The notes under the pieces were generated by a model that was given only the letters and a program-made list of their open reading frames with translations, had not been told where the DNA came from and did no database searches. Below, one piece after another: positions 48,526 through 62,022 of a stretch of DNA of 64,000 nt. The first letter of the stretch is position 1; each line of letters starts with the position of its first letter. The translations under genes and the position numbers were made by a program. The stretch is taken from contig CAUJGP010000015.1 in the NCBI GenBank assembly GCA_963170155.1, forward strand, positions 124,001-188,000, in the 5' to 3' direction. The DNA comes from Bdellovibrionota bacterium (GTDB lineage Bacteria; Bdellovibrionota; Bdellovibrionia; Bdellovibrionales; Bdellovibrionaceae).

Positions 48526-51504
48526 TCAATCATCGCTTTCGATATCCACCACAGAAAGGCTCCACGGTGAACTCCACGGAGACTCAAGCCCTTGCTCATC
48601 ATTAAGCCCTTTGACTCGCCAAAATACTTTTCCCCGAATGGCGGCGTTATCAAGCAAGATTCGATTTTCTTTGGGTTTGAGTGTGTAGAGTATTTTTTTA
48701 AAATTTCGATTTGTTGAAAACTCTATCACATATTGATTTGCTAATTGATCGCCTCGCCATTCTAGCCAAACTTCAGGCCTCTCCATTTTTGATAAAATAT
48801 AGGAGACTTTGTCTTTAGGTAAAACTAAGGTGGGGCTTTGCAAAGGCTTTTTCACAAGATACCTTACCATTTCAACATTCGAATACTGTGAATCTCCAAC
48901 CCCAGAACCTCCCAGTCCTTTGACTCTCACATAAAACTTCCCTGGTTCCGCCAACTGTAGGCGATAAGATCGCTCTTTAACCATCTCTTTCAACTTCAAG
49001 CGAGAAAATTGGGGCTGCTCCGATAGCTCCACCTGAAAAGAAGAGTGTCCAGAAGAAGAATTCCACTTGATGGTAAAATGACCAGGGGGAACTGCCGTCT
49101 CAGCTAAAGGAAGTGCCACAGCCAAAGCATCCACCGGCAACAATTGAGGAGCCCCGGCCTTCACAACCCAAGAAACCGGAGAACTCCAGGGGCCGACTCT
49201 TTTCGTGTCTGAAAGACCAGCCACACGAATTGTGTAGGTTCCTAGTTTCTTGAGGGATACATTCAATTGATTTTGATCCGCAATTTTTTCAAAAACAATA
49301 TTTTTAAATTGGGGATCTTCAGACACTTGTACTTTGAATTGCGCAGCAACACCTCTTTTTTCCCATTGTAGTTTCAGCATGGCCGGCTTATCGCCTTCTA
49401 AAGCACTCTCGTGCATTTTAGAAGCGATAAGAGGTGCCTGTAAACCTTCTTTGTGTGATTCATAAACTTCAACTTTCAAAACCGGAGATGGAATGGAGAC
49501 AATCTCCATCAAAGGATTCTCCAAACGGCTTGTTGGAGTTGATGATTTATCATTGGCAGAAGATAAATGATTTTTGATTTGGTAAACCGATCGAACGCGA
49601 TAATAATAAGTTCCGGGAGCCACATCTTTTAAAGTGAAGGATGTGTAAGGAACCTCCACGCGATGGGTTTGACCATCAAGCTGCGGGAAATTAGGATCTA
49701 AACTGCTCTCCAAGATATAACGAACTGGAATAGACAGCTTTTCATACTCCGCTTTCAAGCGAGACTGGAGAGAGAGTTGAGCTTTTTTCGAGCGCTCTGT
49801 TTTGGTTCCCACAAGAGTTTTTAGATTCCAAGGTAACCATTGTAGTGAGGTATCCGGGAAGGGCGAGAGTCCTCCGTCGTCACTGCGGGGAAGCGCCACG
49901 GACAATGAGGACGCCTTGTGTGCCCATGTTGGTCCAGGGGGACGGATATGCCAAACAAGAGTTTTGGAAACAGGTCCTTTTCTTCCTTGGGAAGACAAAG
50001 GAAAAATTCTGAAATACACAGGCCCAAAACCTCGACCTGAAGGCCCTACAAAACGATTCCCTTTGACCTTCTCCGCATGCAACACATCCGTAAAATGAGG
50101 AGACGTAGAACTCTCGACCCAGAAATCCCTTGTCATCTTTTGAACGTCCCATTGGAAAGCCGGAGCTTCAGAGCCCAAAAGCGTTTCTATCTCTTCTTTT
50201 AAAGCAAGAGGCGTGGTTAATCCATCGGGGTCCACATCGGTCACCTCGACAATCAAAGTATGAGACCACAAAGAAGGAGGTCTTCCCAAACTCTCACTTC
50301 GCACTCGTGCATAATATTTTCCAAGAGTTAACCTTGGAATAGACCATTGTTTTTCTTTAACCTCATAACTCATCTTTTCTTTAAATTGCGGGTCTCGCCC
50401 AAATTCAATGCGATAAAGCATTGCTTTAATTGAACTGTCCCACTTCAAAATTGAAAGTTCCTGCTGTCGGCTGTCCACAGCAGAGGGAGAAAGATCTTGA
50501 GTTTCAGCCCACTGATTGGATGGAATCATCAATGGGTCCATTTTATTCTTCCATTCTGGCGACGTTAACAACCCAAGATTCCATTGAATAACTTCAGATT
50601 GCAAAGAAGCTTCCGAACGACCCTTTTTAAAAACTTCTACTTGCCAATAAAGACTGCCCTCCGCAAAAGAAGGAACCCATTCAAAGCCATTGATCTTTAA
50701 AAATTCATTCACCAACGGTTGGCTCAGATCGGGTTTTGTAGAGACAATGAGCCTATAGCGATCGACCGGCCCTTCTGCGTGCCAATAAAATTTCAGTTTT
50801 TGTTTTTCAGAAAACCATAGATTTTTATTTTCTGCCCACTGATCAAGTCTTACAAAAAGAGGTTCTTCCTCCAGAGGAGCTAAACTTCCAATGCTGGCAA
50901 CCCCACGGTAAATATTCAATTGGTGTTTCTTGGCAAGAAGCAATTTTTTTTGTGATTTAGATTCAGTTAATTTAACTTGACCTTCAATAATTTTCAACTG
51001 GGTGGTTTGCAGCTTTTTTTTATTGAGAGAAAATTCAACGGCTTTCCCCTCTAAATCCAAATCCTGGTCATTAATATTGAGCTTCAAGGGTAATCCTTTA
51101 TTGGAACCTAAATGGCCCCTCAGATTTCCAAAGCGCAAATCCAACTTCATCATGTTCTGAACCTGATCTAAAACCACTAAAGAATTAGGATCAATCCAAA
51201 GGTTAATTCCGGTAGTAAGACGTATGGCGACAGAACTCTTGCTTCCCGTAAAGATTGAATCCCCAACATAGACAGATTCCAAATCGTTCAATGGCAACCA
51301 AACAAAATCATCGGTGGATCGGCGTCGAACATCCCTGATGAGCTGGTCAACCGCGCCAATTTGAGTTCCTTGATTGGTAAAACGAGATTTAAAAAAACTG
51401 GAATTGTCATTCAACAAAAACAAAAATAATAACATCCCCAGCATTGAAAGGCCGAGGAGCCATCGATCCAGTCGGTCACCCTGATGAAAAAAAGGTAATT
51501 TCAT
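48526..51504 (-). CDS. FecR-domain protein with fibronectin-III-like repeats
   Basis: 992 residues. There is one N-terminal transmembrane segment (LLGLSMLGMLLFLFLL). A FecR-type domain follows at about residues 75-200 (WLPLNDLESVYVGDSIFTGS ... IRLTTGINLWIDPNSLVVL). At least five beta-rich units then recur with 'ARVRSESLGR', 'YRVRSVYQIK', 'IRVAGLSDTK', 'VRVKGLGGSG' and 'WRVKGLNDEQ', each ending in a WS(S)P-type loop. Fn3-like repeats are inferred from this spacing. An envelope-spanning scaffold or adhesin is likely; no catalytic motif is seen. There is no Shine-Dalgarno before the ATG, and a sigma-28-like promoter places the transcript start almost at it. Confidence 0.75.
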   Translation of the reverse strand: MKLPFFHQGDRLDRWLLGLSMLGMLLFLFLLNDNSSFFKSRFTNQGTQIGAVDQLIRDVRRRSTDDFVWLPLNDLESVYVGDSIFTGSKSSVAIRLTTGINLWIDPNSLVVLDQVQNMMKLDLRFGNLRGHLGSNKGLPLKLNINDQDLDLEGKAVEFSLNKKKLQTTQLKIIEGQVKLTESKSQKKLLLAKKHQLNIYRGVASIGSLAPLEEEPLFVRLDQWAENKNLWFSEKQKLKFYWHAEGPVDRYRLIVSTKPDLSQPLVNEFLKINGFEWVPSFAEGSLYWQVEVFKKGRSEASLQSEVIQWNLGLLTSPEWKNKMDPLMIPSNQWAETQDLSPSAVDSRQQELSILKWDSSIKAMLYRIEFGRDPQFKEKMSYEVKEKQWSIPRLTLGKYYARVRSESLGRPPSLWSHTLIVEVTDVDPDGLTTPLALKEEIETLLGSEAPAFQWDVQKMTRDFWVESSTSPHFTDVLHAEKVKGNRFVGPSGRGFGPVYFRIFPLSSQGRKGPVSKTLVWHIRPPGPTWAHKASSLSVALPRSDDGGLSPFPDTSLQWLPWNLKTLVGTKTERSKKAQLSLQSRLKAEYEKLSIPVRYILESSLDPNFPQLDGQTHRVEVPYTSFTLKDVAPGTYYYRVRSVYQIKNHLSSANDKSSTPTSRLENPLMEIVSIPSPVLKVEVYESHKEGLQAPLIASKMHESALEGDKPAMLKLQWEKRGVAAQFKVQVSEDPQFKNIVFEKIADQNQLNVSLKKLGTYTIRVAGLSDTKRVGPWSSPVSWVVKAGAPQLLPVDALAVALPLAETAVPPGHFTIKWNSSSGHSSFQVELSEQPQFSRLKLKEMVKERSYRLQLAEPGKFYVRVKGLGGSGVGDSQYSNVEMVRYLVKKPLQSPTLVLPKDKVSYILSKMERPEVWLEWRGDQLANQYVIEFSTNRNFKKILYTLKPKENRILLDNAAIRGKVFWRVKGLNDEQGLESPWSSPWSLSVVDIESDD

Positions 51505-51511
51505 GATTTCA

Positions 51512-51538
51512 TTATCGGATTCAAAGGAGATTTCTTTA
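51512..51538 (-). promoter_or_regulatory. Sigma-28 (FliA)-like promoter of the FecR-domain gene
   Basis: On the minus strand, TAAAGAAA (51538-51531), exactly 11 bases, then TCCGATAA (51519-51512). The consensus for flagellar sigma is TAAAGTTT-N11-GCCGATAA, so the -10 box matches 7 of 8. The predicted start of transcription is around 51505-51506 and the ATG is at 51504, so the mRNA would be leaderless or nearly so. Confidence 0.6.
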
Positions 51539-51752
51539 GATATCTTAGAGCTTGTTTGGCAAAGGACTCCTCCTCTTTAATTTCATAACTAGGCTCTAGA
51601 CCTCACTTCAATGAAAAAAAAACAGCACCTTGGTTGAGATGATAAAGTTGATTTTGAACTTTAGACACTTCAAATCTGGACCCCTTTTAAAGGTTCCAAG
51701 CAAATCATAGCCTCGAACATAACAGGATCTCCAGTTCGATGTGAATCAGGAC

Positions 51753-51779
51753 TAAAGAACTTTAATTTATTGTCGATAA
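51753..51779 (+). promoter_or_regulatory. Sigma-28 (FliA)-like promoter of the partner-switch operon
   Basis: TAAAGAAC (51753-51760), 11 bases, GTCGATAA (51772-51779). Seven of eight -10 bases match the flagellar sigma consensus. The expected start is about 51786; the ATG is at 51787 and has no Shine-Dalgarno. Confidence 0.6.
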
Positions 51780-51786
51780 ATCCCAC

Positions 51787-53619
51787 ATGAAATCCATCCA
51801 CTTATCATTAAAATACAAAGTAATGATATTACTTACTGTGATCCCCTTGCTGCTACTGGGGGCCTATTTGCAGTTGGTTGTTGGTGTTTTCGAAAAAGAT
51901 AAAATTGCATACGTTTACGATACAAACTCCAGCGTCAATCGCAGCATTGCCTCGCAAACAAGAAGTGTTTTTTTGACTGTTCTGAGCGCGATGAAACCCA
52001 TGTTGCAGGAGCATTTTACCAATGGCGAATTTGGAATCCTGTCCAAAGAAATTTTTAGAAATGATAATTCCTTATTGTTTATAGGTCTGTTAAAAAGCAA
52101 TAAAGGTCAAATTTCTATTTACGATCACATCGAAAAGGATCAAGAGTATTACAATGATTTTATCAAGGATCTCGGGCACCTCAACATTATTCTCGGTGGG
52201 CTTAAAAATGAAGAAAGAACGGTTAGAACCCCCTTTCCCAATAACAACATTCTCCTCATCGAATCGGTTCAAAACCCAATAGATCAATCTTTATATCACT
52301 TTGCTGTAATCTTTCAAAGTCACGAGTTGACAGATCTTTTTTCAGGAGCCAAAAGCCAATTCTTCTTAGCCAATGAAAACGGAGAAATGTTATTTAAAAA
52401 TTCGAATCGTACTTTAAAAACCAATAGCTTTCTTTCCTTAGACAATAAATTTTTCAAGAAAATAAAAACATCAAAAATCTCTTATGGCACAGAAGAAACA
52501 AAAGATAAAAAAACGACCTACTTGACCTCTTACAACAAGGTGGGGTTTGCGAATCTAATGACTATTTCCATGATCAATAAAAATGCGGCACTGTCTGCAA
52601 TTCAAATATTGGTCACGAAATCCCTGTTGTTCGCGGGACTTTTACTTTGCTTTGCTTTATTCATCAGTATTGTCAGCTCACAAAGCATCACAAAGGCGCT
52701 GACTGAACTTATGCAAGCCTCTCGGAGGATCGCGCTTGGGGATTTCACTTCAAGAGTCAAAATCAAAGCCAACGATGAGATCGGGAGTTTAGCCAATAGT
52801 TTTAATTTAATGTCTAAAGAAGTCGGTCGCTTAATGAATGAGACCGCTGAAAAAGCCAGAATGGAAAGTGAATTGCAAACCGCTAGGACCGTGCAAGAAA
52901 CGCTCTTCCCTCCCAATATTCAAGACTTCGATCAATTACAAATTGCGGGCCACTATGAACCAGCCAGTGAATGTGGTGGTGATTGGTGGTATTACTCTAA
53001 GACCAATAATAAAATCATTTTATGTATTGGAGATGCCACAGGGCATGGAGCTCCTGCCGCGCTTATTACCAGTGCGGCTCGTTCCGCGGCCAGCGTGGTG
53101 GAAACCTTAGACCTGGATGCCAGTAAAATCATGCATTATATTAATAAATCCATTTATGATGTCTCTCGCGGACGCGTGATGATGACTTTTTTTCTGGGCA
53201 TCATAGATCTAGAAACTTCACAAATGACTTATTGTAATGCCAGCCACGAACCTCCTTTTCTAATTAAGGGAGAGATTGGCCCTAATCCCAAGAAAAAAGA
53301 TTTGATCCCTCTGATTGAAGTCAATAACGCTCGTTTAGGTCAGGACCCCAACACGCTCTTTGACCAAACTCAAGTCACTTTAAATGAAAATGATTTTATT
53401 TTATTTTACACAGACGGAATTGCCGATATCCGCAATATTAATGGCGTGAATCTGGGAGAAAGAGAATTCATCAAAGTTTTTTTGAAATCTTTGGCGCACA
53501 AAGAAAATCCAGAAATTTTTGTTCAATCAATGACTAGCACCCTCAATGAATATCGAGAGCAGACAGATCTTATCGACGACGTCACGTTTTTTTGCATTAA
53601 ATACGGAAGAGCCTCTTAA
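51787..53619 (+). CDS. SpoIIE/RsbU-type PP2C phosphatase with sensor and HAMP domains
   Basis: 610 residues: a transmembrane segment near residues 13-28, an extracytoplasmic sensor region of about 240 residues, a second transmembrane segment (LLFAGLLLCFALFISIVSS), a HAMP domain (LTELMQASRRIALGDFTSRV), a helical linker (ESELQTARTVQETLFPP) and a SpoIIE phosphatase. Metal-binding Asp residues are in SECGGDWWYYS, CIGDATGHGAPAA, LFYTDGIAD and IDDVTFF. RsbU-type enzymes dephosphorylate STAS proteins and free a kinase/anti-sigma factor. The next two genes supply these partners. Confidence 0.92.
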   Translation: MKSIHLSLKYKVMILLTVIPLLLLGAYLQLVVGVFEKDKIAYVYDTNSSVNRSIASQTRSVFLTVLSAMKPMLQEHFTNGEFGILSKEIFRNDNSLLFIGLLKSNKGQISIYDHIEKDQEYYNDFIKDLGHLNIILGGLKNEERTVRTPFPNNNILLIESVQNPIDQSLYHFAVIFQSHELTDLFSGAKSQFFLANENGEMLFKNSNRTLKTNSFLSLDNKFFKKIKTSKISYGTEETKDKKTTYLTSYNKVGFANLMTISMINKNAALSAIQILVTKSLLFAGLLLCFALFISIVSSQSITKALTELMQASRRIALGDFTSRVKIKANDEIGSLANSFNLMSKEVGRLMNETAEKARMESELQTARTVQETLFPPNIQDFDQLQIAGHYEPASECGGDWWYYSKTNNKIILCIGDATGHGAPAALITSAARSAASVVETLDLDASKIMHYINKSIYDVSRGRVMMTFFLGIIDLETSQMTYCNASHEPPFLIKGEIGPNPKKKDLIPLIEVNNARLGQDPNTLFDQTQVTLNENDFILFYTDGIADIRNINGVNLGEREFIKVFLKSLAHKENPEIFVQSMTSTLNEYREQTDLIDDVTFFCIKYGRAS

Positions 53620-53620
53620 T

Positions 53621-54478
53621 ATGAATCGTTTCAAATCCCTACTGAATCAATTCAAAAATATACAAGTCATTGATTGCCAATCCATCGATTTATTGCCTCA
53701 ACCTCTTTTTCCATCATCAGAAATACAATCCACTATCATTCGGTTCAGTCATTGGACCCAGAACCAAATGTTAGAAGTCGCCGCTTCGGGGCGTTTTCAG
53801 GTATTTTTGAATACAAACGGCCAACTTGCTGATTCAGAATTATTTTCGAGTCTGCATATCCAATCCAACCCTAAAGAGTTTTTACTTTCTGATCCAATTC
53901 CTTTTTGGTTTCAGAATGATCCTACAAAACTGGTTCTTTCTTTTCGTAAAAAATCAGAGAAATTCGAATTGATGCGACACTTTGAGCCTTTTCTGGAACA
54001 AACGGAATCGCGTCTTGTTCAGGAGAACGCTCGCCTTCTTTTTCAAGAACTTTTTATGAACGCCGCTATCGATGCCCCAAGAGAGGCTAAAAAACACGGA
54101 ATCGCTGTAGACGGTCAAAAAGAAAGTCAGATGATTTTCGCTTATGATCATGAAAAATTTGTGCTTTCCTGCTTTGATCCCTATGGAGCGCTGGACCCCC
54201 AAGCGGTCGTCGTCAGAATCCACCAAATCCTGAGCAAAGAAAATATCAACATTCTCAATTTTGACCGCAAAAAAGGGGGAGCTGGAATTGGAAGTTCCCT
54301 TCTTTTTCGTTACTCAAGCACATTAAGCCTTGTTGTTGAAGAGGGAAAAGGAACTCGTGTCAGCTGTACCATCCCTTTAAAAATAGGACAAAAAAAATTC
54401 GATCTACTAGAAAAAAACCTTCAATTTATTAAAATACCCCCACAAGGAGAACTTTATGAAAAACAACGTAATGCTTAA
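53621..54478 (+). CDS. RsbW-like GHKL kinase / anti-sigma-type protein
   Basis: 285 residues from the ATG at 53621, two bases after the phosphatase stop. The C-terminal half has an N box (FQELFMNAAIDAPREA, the E-x-x-x-N pattern), a degenerate acidic box (FDPYGALD), and a Gly-rich G2 region (KKGGAGIGSSLLFRYSS) ending GTRVSCTIPL. This is the RsbW/SpoIIAB nucleotide-binding fold, found in serine kinases of partner switches. The N-terminal 140 residues match nothing I know and may bind a target. Its 3' end overlaps the STAS gene by 23 bases. Confidence 0.75.
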   Translation: MNRFKSLLNQFKNIQVIDCQSIDLLPQPLFPSSEIQSTIIRFSHWTQNQMLEVAASGRFQVFLNTNGQLADSELFSSLHIQSNPKEFLLSDPIPFWFQNDPTKLVLSFRKKSEKFELMRHFEPFLEQTESRLVQENARLLFQELFMNAAIDAPREAKKHGIAVDGQKESQMIFAYDHEKFVLSCFDPYGALDPQAVVVRIHQILSKENINILNFDRKKGGAGIGSSLLFRYSSTLSLVVEEGKGTRVSCTIPLKIGQKKFDLLEKNLQFIKIPPQGELYEKQRNA

Positions 54479-54944
54479 AAATGAAGGCGATAAAGTGGTC
54501 GTAAAACTACTTGGAGTTCTTGATGAAGAAGTGACTTTTGCTGCATATTCTCTGAATGGAGCCCCCAACATTGTTTTTGATTTTTCAGATGTCAAAGGTA
54601 TCAATTCTTGTGGTATCCGAGAATGGATTCGCTGGATTGGTCCTCACTCTAAAGTCGCTATGGTCTACAAAAACTGTCCTAAAATCATCGTTGATCAAAT
54701 CAATATGGTCGATGGTTTCTTACCTAGCAATGGGTTTGTGGAATCTTTCTATGTTCCTTATTATTCCAACGAAACCGATGAAGAAAAGCATATTCTATTT
54801 TCTTATGGCCAAGAATTTTCCGAAAATGGAATTCATTATCCAACACAAGTCCTCGACTCCAAAAACAACCCTATGGATATCGACGTTATTGAAAGTAAAT
54901 ATTTTCGATTTTTACAAAAAGGCTTGAATAAAAAAGTCTCCTGA
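54456..54944 (+). CDS. STAS-domain anti-anti-sigma-like protein with a C-terminal extension
   Basis: 162 residues. The STAS core reads VVVKLLGVLDEEVTF ... IVFDFSDVKGINSCGIREW. The phosphoacceptor serine of SpoIIAA/RsbV aligns with Ser51 in NSCG, but the usual preceding Asp is Asn. After the STAS part, about 70 residues (FVESFYVPYYSNETDEEKHI ...) extend the protein beyond the normal RsbV length. GGAGAACTTT precedes the ATG. With the phosphatase and RsbW-like gene it completes a partner-switch set. The final target (sigma factor or other) is not encoded nearby. Confidence 0.8.
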   Translation: MKNNVMLKNEGDKVVVKLLGVLDEEVTFAAYSLNGAPNIVFDFSDVKGINSCGIREWIRWIGPHSKVAMVYKNCPKIIVDQINMVDGFLPSNGFVESFYVPYYSNETDEEKHILFSYGQEFSENGIHYPTQVLDSKNNPMDIDVIESKYFRFLQKGLNKKVS

Positions 54945-58521: not shown

Positions 58522-59013
58522 TTACCTCAGCCACTCTGTTGCGATTTGTACTTGGCTTAAGTTCAACGCTTTTGCAATTTTTAGAAGAGTATTTCTTCTT
58601 GGCATTGAAGCAGAACCAAAAAAACGAGAGAGAGATGGTTGTGGGATATCTGTCAATTGTGCGAGATGGTTTAATCCGCCTTGCTTGTCAATTTCAAGTC
58701 GAAGAGTATCCTTAAAGACTCTTATGTTTTTTGCAATTCCTTCTAAATCATCAAAGCGTATGTAAGTTCCTTCTATTTTTTCTTTTTGAGAGCAGTCATC
58801 AATTAAATCTTGAATATCGGCTACAATTTCATCTTGTTCAGATTTATCTTTTTCGTCGGCCCACATTTTCATTAGGTCGTAAACGCCTTCAAATTCAAAA
58901 GCCGTTTCAACAGCAGAAGCAATAAACGAACTAGGAAGACCTTTCTTATGCATCAAGGCTCCAATTTCCATAAGCTCAACTTTTAAATCAGGTGTAATTG
59001 CTTGTGCTTTCAT
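58522..59013 (-). CDS. XRE-type HTH antitoxin-like protein
   Basis: 163 residues. The C-terminal 65 residues are an XRE/HigA-like helix-turn-helix (LNHLAQLTDIPQPSLSRFFG then NTLLKIAKALNLSQ). The N-terminal 100 residues are helical and acidic and may neutralise the partner. The ATG at 59013 shares a base with the stop of the upstream gene (TAATG) and follows GGGAGA. This order, small toxin-like gene then HTH gene, is that of HigB/HigA-type pairs. Confidence 0.75.
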   Translation of the reverse strand: MKAQAITPDLKVELMEIGALMHKKGLPSSFIASAVETAFEFEGVYDLMKMWADEKDKSEQDEIVADIQDLIDDCSQKEKIEGTYIRFDDLEGIAKNIRVFKDTLRLEIDKQGGLNHLAQLTDIPQPSLSRFFGSASMPRRNTLLKIAKALNLSQVQIATEWLR

Positions 59014-59408
59014 TATAATCTCCCACACTCGGTGAATTGATTTCTTCGTATTAATTCTAAATGAGTTTTAAAAACTGCCATTTTTCTTTTTTCAAAATTC
59101 GTGTTGCCTTTGATGTAAGCGCCGCAAAGAACTGCTTCAGCGAACATACCAACAGGTAGGCGTAACTGAATTTTACCATTACCAATATTGTGCCATTTCA
59201 TTTTATATCCTTCTGGAATTCGGTTGCTCGTATGGTTAGTAGCAATTGACCAGAATTTGGAATTTTGAAATTTGGTGTTCGTGGGGTAATTCTTTAACAA
59301 CAAAACATCAGGGCGAATGACTGAACTATAGTCTTGATTGCTTATTGAATTGCTGTGCTTTAAATCCAAATAAGAGTCTAAAGCCCACTGGGTTATTACA
59401 ATATCCAC
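59013..59408 (-). CDS. Toxin-like protein (RelE/HigB-type arrangement)
   Basis: 131 residues with a GTG start at 59408 after GGAGG. The C-terminal region KMKWHNIGNGKIQLRLPVGM ... VLCGAYIKGN has the beta-rich, basic pattern of RelE/ParE-fold toxins, and ends in a helix with KRKMAVFKTHLELIRR. I recognise no exact family. Its position before an HTH gene, with overlapping TAATG, supports a toxin-antitoxin role. Two inverted repeats lie in its promoter region. Confidence 0.6.
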   Translation of the reverse strand: MDIVITQWALDSYLDLKHSNSISNQDYSSVIRPDVLLLKNYPTNTKFQNSKFWSIATNHTSNRIPEGYKMKWHNIGNGKIQLRLPVGMFAEAVLCGAYIKGNTNFEKRKMAVFKTHLELIRRNQFTECGRL

Positions 59409-59427: not shown

Positions 59428-59454
59428 TTATCGGATATAACCTAAATATCCTTA
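59428..59454 (-). promoter_or_regulatory. Sigma-28-like promoter overlapping a GGATAT/ATATCC operator
   Basis: Minus strand: TAAGGATA (59454-59447), 11 bases, TCCGATAA (59435-59428). The -35 match is weaker than in the other three. The spacer holds the inverted repeat GGATAT-N7-ATATCC (59433-59451), a plausible binding site for the HTH protein, so autoregulation is likely. Confidence 0.45.
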
Positions 59455-59479
59455 ATAATAAATATAACATAAATAACAT

Positions 59480-61995: not shown

Positions 61996-62022
61996 TTATC
62001 GGTTATATTTTAGATTCCTTTA
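61996..62022 (-). promoter_or_regulatory. Sigma-28 (FliA)-like promoter of the TIGR02147 gene
   Basis: Minus strand: TAAAGGAA (62022-62015), 11 bases, ACCGATAA (62003-61996). Predicted start near 61989, leaving a 34-base leader that carries the AAAGGA ribosome site of the ATG at 61955. Confidence 0.6.

Follow-up and report, generated by a model that had tools for sequence, protein, structure and literature searches.

The window, by which we mean the whole 64,000-nucleotide stretch of DNA that was analysed, comes from a bacterium that belongs to the family of Bdellovibrio and has a genome of 2.85 Mb. Here, two transcription units diverge from a gap of 282 bp. On the minus strand lies the gene of a FecR-domain protein of 992 aa (48526..51504), which has a hydrophobic segment at its N-terminus and Ig-like repeats. 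Both the FecR and the Ig-like matches are weak (E 2e-4 for Pfam FecR, which narrowly misses the curated cut-off), and the protein is probably periplasmic or located at the surface. The plus strand starts with the gene of a membrane sensor phosphatase (51787..53619), made up of an N-terminal sensor region, a HAMP domain and a SpoIIE/PPM domain (Pfam SpoIIE 6e-33, HAMP 1e-12). Orthologs of this phosphatase were found in records of Bdellovibrio and of other Bdellovibrionales, and in their alignment the GDATGHG motif and the DD metal ligands, that is, the metal-binding Asp residues of a PPM phosphatase, are invariant.

Downstream follows the gene of a predicted SpoIIAB/RsbW-like serine kinase (53621..54478, plus strand). 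It gave no Pfam match above the cut-off, but it carries the N, G1 and G2 motifs of a GHKL protein (E..N, DxxGxL, GGAGIG), and its AlphaFold model (pLDDT 85) has SpoIIAB among its best PDB matches. The kinase probably starts at 53621, 2 nt past the end of the phosphatase gene; the longest ORF would begin at 53546, and its first 22 residues are modelled with pLDDT below 50. The last gene (54456..54944, plus strand) encodes a protein resembling STAS anti-sigma antagonists, with a conserved C-terminal extension. It has no Pfam STAS match; its model (pLDDT 92) matches SpoIIAA/RsbV, and the invariant S51 within INSxGIREW is a candidate phospho-Ser. Four of the STAS orthologs (L096, L104, L135 and L138) present Cys pairs of the YCExC type in the extension, which are absent from the window copy and possibly represent a metal site that was lost or gained. 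There is no sigma factor gene in the operon. The phosphatase-kinase-STAS relay that had been proposed for this locus is thus borne out by catalytic motifs and predicted folds.

Within the gap, the plus strand carries TAAAGAAC-N11-GTCGATAA (51753..51779; in full, TAAAGAAC-TTTAATTTATT-GTCGATAA), followed by 7 nt (51780-51786) and the ATG of the phosphatase gene at 51787. The minus strand carries TAAAGAAA-N11-TCCGATAA (51512..51538; read from 51538 to 51512 as TAAAGAAA-TCTCCTTTGAA-TCCGATAA), again followed by 7 nt and the ATG of the FecR gene at 51504. Both sites agree with the sigma-28-type pattern TAAAG-N16-CGATAA, a TAAAG-type -35 and a CGATAA -10 with N16 between the cores, at 11 of 11 core positions. 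The original prediction of sigma-28-like boxes with exact spacing on either side therefore describes what is there, and its -10 boxes are indeed adjacent to the starts, but the distance that it gave as seven to eight bases is 7 nt on both sides. A search of the gap for structured RNA detected none.

The start codons on which these distances depend are well placed. In neither the FecR nor the phosphatase reading frame is there a further ATG, GTG or TTG between the start and the preceding in-frame stop, and the conserved N-terminal residues of the phosphatase relatives begin directly 3' of the ATG. The lack of a Shine-Dalgarno sequence, also claimed beforehand, was confirmed for both genes: between -20 and -4 the longest run of anti-SD complementarity is 3 nt or less, against at least 4 nt in 74% of the genes sampled in this genome. 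Both genes thus combine the absence of a Shine-Dalgarno sequence with a -10 box that lies 5-10 nt before the start codon. Given the usual distance from -10 to +1, the transcript of the phosphatase operon would start within 1-2 nt of the A of its ATG (51780..51787, plus strand), and that of the FecR gene is predicted to start at 51504..51511 (minus strand), likewise leaderless.

The host has the factor that could read such promoters. Its genome encodes FliA (sigma-28) in one copy above the cut-off (TIGR02479, 267 bits), as well as FlgM, and holds eight matches to Flagellin_N, one of which (L041) resembles a hook-associated gene. Sites of this type lie upstream of at least three flagellin genes, where we found TAAAGGGAAACAAGACCCGGCCGATAG (L036), TAAAGCTGCACGAGACCTCGCCGATGG (L037) and TAAAGTTTGCTGGACCTTCGCCGAGAA (L040), which are TAAAG-N16-CGATRG or near matches to it. 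As reported in the main text of Karunker et al. 2013 (PMC3627812), 140 attack-phase promoters were mapped in B. bacteriovorus, of which 92 contain TTAAG-N16-CCGATA and were assigned to FliA; with two thirds of the mapped attack-phase promoters, FliA is described there as a global attack-phase sigma factor. A promoter study of 2025 assigns the motif in the same way. The idea that the kinase could replace FlgM as anti-sigma factor of FliA was considered and is not needed, since the host has FlgM and, of the 30 genomes searched, 28 contain it above the cut-off.

How far the motif by itself identifies a promoter was evaluated by counting. In a sample of 464 kb of the genome (the window and 400 kb of stretches), three exact 11-position matches were counted among about 200,000 intergenic positions, each of them inside the window, and coding DNA yielded a single one in about 726,500 strand-positions. 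When one or two mismatches are allowed, the motif is as frequent in coding as in intergenic DNA of this sample, and the genome-wide count of TAAAG-N16-CGATAA with mismatches shows no excess over a reversed-pattern control. It should be noted that the genome-wide motif listing missed the minus-strand site of the gap, which two other read-outs confirmed. The argument that the arrangement is unlikely by chance stands for the exact pair, although motif statistics alone would not suffice to support it. Since the loose counts are uninformative, the question of coding versus upstream occurrence calls for a comparison with relatives.

Two further sites of this type were noted elsewhere in the window. 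The third exact TAAAG-N16-CGATAA match lies at 61996-62022 (minus strand), about 40 nt before a called minus-strand gene. A high-scoring FliA-like site, ATTAAGG..TCCGATAA (59428-59456, minus strand, score 15.3), is located about 19 nt ahead of a small minus-strand operon of two genes (59013-59408 and 58522-59028) that by eye resemble a HigB-type toxin and an XRE-type antitoxin.

For the comparison we collected 80 loci with a relative of the phosphatase, 71 of them with enough upstream and 74 with enough downstream sequence. A divergent FecR homolog stands beside the phosphatase gene in 58 of the 71, and downstream there is a STAS gene in 50 and a kinase gene in 27 of the 74. Of the phosphatase orthologs, 16 of 67 have CGAT at -15..-12, where the background is 1.2% (P 2e-16); for the FecR orthologs the figures are 11 of 39 and 2.6% (P 3e-9). 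These P values treat loci as independent and so overstate the significance of what is a large effect. Near-identical upstream regions were removed in the phosphatase set only, and the window contributes one row per side, whose removal leaves the conclusion unchanged. Within the wider interval of -31..-11, CGAT was seen in 21 of 66 orthologs of the phosphatase and in 26 of 38 of the FecR protein, a partial conservation of the promoter. With CGAT as the only anchor and the window excluded, TTAA was best placed at -22, independently for either side (combined z 4.2), which is the register of the published FliA consensus TTAAG-N16-CCGATA.

The two sides have not kept the same features. About two thirds of the phosphatase orthologs have no clear FliA -10. 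In Bdellovibrio proper the phosphatase gene shows instead GGGCATACT (CATACT) or CATAAT about 7 nt before a GTG, a box that looks like a sigma-70 -10 and that preserves the leaderless distance. In the loci of Bdellovibrio proper and close kin with this box (L073-L076, L083, L100 and L101) the kinase gene is absent alongside. In front of the FecR gene, Bdellovibrio proper carries CCGATAA together with a leader of roughly 10-20 nt with a GGAG-like site, and FecR orthologs form a second CGAT group at -23..-25. As far as these upstream regions tell, with some start codons in relatives having been assigned within this analysis, the FecR side has better preserved FliA control, and the phosphatase side the start-abutting geometry; the window has the FliA-type box together with the start-abutting position on both sides.

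These data allow the possible explanations to be weighed. A chance match of AT-rich intergenic DNA would agree with the failure of looser motif versions to be enriched genome-wide. However, two exact sites that lie 241 bp apart on opposite strands, each 7 nt before a start codon, cannot be put down to chance, and together with the positional footprint in relatives they make this explanation extremely improbable. It is also conceivable that it is the housekeeping sigma-70 that reads the boxes, with GATAAT or GATAAA as the -10: the minus-side GATAAT matches TATAAT at 5 of 6 positions, and the boxes ahead of the phosphatase gene in Bdellovibrio proper point in the same direction. Nevertheless, a -35 at a spacing of 17 bp would read CTAAAG, which matches TTGACA poorly; the -35 recovered in relatives is TTAA, placed at the offset of FliA, and the C/G that precedes GATA has been conserved, so that we hold this explanation to be quite unlikely.

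A different possibility accepts the promoters as FliA-type but places the main transcripts at a second promoter upstream, which would give them an A/U-rich or S1-dependent leader and make neither gene truly leaderless. The gap does offer room for other promoters, being longer than the roughly 80-170 bp of most relatives, and short leaders that include a Shine-Dalgarno sequence occur on the FecR side of some relatives. On the other hand, the maintenance of a distance of 7-8 nt between the -10 and the start in many diverged phosphatase orthologs would be hard to explain by such upstream starts, and we regard them as unlikely.

The reading that we prefer, and hold to be probable, is that the gap contains two divergent FliA promoters, with leaderless starts and joint expression of the FecR gene and the partner-switch operon in the motile stage. 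According to this model, FliA-RNA polymerase would start both transcripts at the AUG or within a base or two of it, giving mRNAs that are leaderless and have no Shine-Dalgarno sequence, and the FecR-repeat protein would be made together with the phosphatase, kinase and STAS protein in a motile, attack-like stage. The FecR protein may then feed the phosphatase, which would dephosphorylate the STAS protein and so bring about a partner switch with the kinase. We infer the use of FliA, the transcript starts and the timing in the life cycle, and the motility-stage sigma factor originally proposed for the two genes is supported by the presence of FliA and FlgM, by the flagellin sites and by the footprint in relatives.

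A small leaderless FliA class is also hinted at for this genome. When 332 sampled genes were scored with a matrix derived from the relatives, five had a site of score 8 or more at 5-9 nt ahead of the chosen start, compared with about 1.5 per 5-nt bin elsewhere; the window pair accounts for two of the five, and the excess is not significant without it. FliA-like boxes that end 6-7 nt before an ATG were noted at L155:16023 (plus), L153:5701 (minus) and L152:5136 (minus), and represent candidates for further leaderless FliA genes.

Another aspect to mention is a palindrome found in the relatives. Upstream of the phosphatase orthologs (L072-L149) the most enriched words were GGACC/GGTCC, and a palindrome model, GGAC-NWWN-GTCC, reached a mean score of 13.8 in the top 30 loci versus 7.6-8.0 in shuffles, its centre clustering between -58 and -61 relative to the start codon, about -59. 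If transcription begins at that codon, this would be close to -61.5, around which class I activators usually bind. In the host genome, palindromes scoring at least 10 occur about three times more often between genes than within them (24 versus 8 per 100 kb), and one (L170:2410-2425) precedes the end of the FliA -10 box at flagellin L036 by 51 nt. The window gap has no clear copy, its best score of 7.3 being at background level. Strongly enriched and fixed in its position in the relatives, the palindrome is probably the operator of a regulator, and we treat it as a lead. It would have escaped the published attack-phase analysis, in which, as the main text of that article indicates, only 50 bases upstream of the transcript starts were examined (PMC3627812).

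A general role of the palindrome as partner of all FliA promoters was rejected: the strict arrangement GGACNNNNGTC-N28..52-CGATA is not enriched in the three genomes searched, and only one of the host's own flagellin promoters has a strong copy at a matching distance. The idea that the palindrome compensates for a weak FliA -35 gave rho -0.22 (P 0.07). A more ambitious proposal, which we put forward only tentatively and consider rather doubtful, is that the FecR-repeat/partner-switch module would be an undescribed attack-stage unit of the Bdellovibrionales whose start-abutting transcription is conserved across a change of sigma class, with GGAC-NWWN-GTCC (centre about -59, also at a flagellin FliA promoter) marking an activator that works with FliA.

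How Bdellovibrio senses envelope signals and relays them in the attack phase is poorly known, and a FecR-type envelope protein, a membrane phosphatase and a STAS switch under FliA would be a concrete and deeply conserved candidate for such signalling. FliA and its part in the attack phase are already known, while the literature searched appears to hold no description of the conserved module with its start-abutting promoters, and we found no account there of partner switching in Bdellovibrio. Conserved leaderless sigma-28 genes, if confirmed, would be unusual: we know of no described set, and a search limited to titles and abstracts returned no obvious one.

Among the known systems, the operon is predicted to resemble SpoIIE-SpoIIAB-SpoIIAA and RsbU-RsbW-RsbV in bringing together a PPM phosphatase, an ATPase-fold kinase and a STAS protein. 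It differs from them in the extra conserved C-terminal part of the STAS protein, in the lack of an operon sigma factor and in the absence of the kinase alongside in many relatives. SiaABCD of Pseudomonas aeruginosa likewise joins a membrane PPM phosphatase with a kinase and a STAS-like partner; the phosphatase profile matches the serine phosphatase structure 6k4e in the PDB (E 6e-12), and the kinase model weakly matches SiaB (6kko). Unlike SiaABCD, the window operon has no diguanylate cyclase that we could see, and the STAS and kinase alignments gave no SiaC or SiaB Pfam match at E up to 1, so that we do not assign it to SiaABC. The main text of Karunker et al. 2013 (PMC3627812) mentions neither SpoIIE nor phosphatases nor leaderless starts, and its supplementary gene tables may list the pair. 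The FliA attack-phase regulon of B. bacteriovorus described in that text shares with the window the sigma family and the -35/-10 register, and its known targets include cell-surface proteins (PMC3627812).
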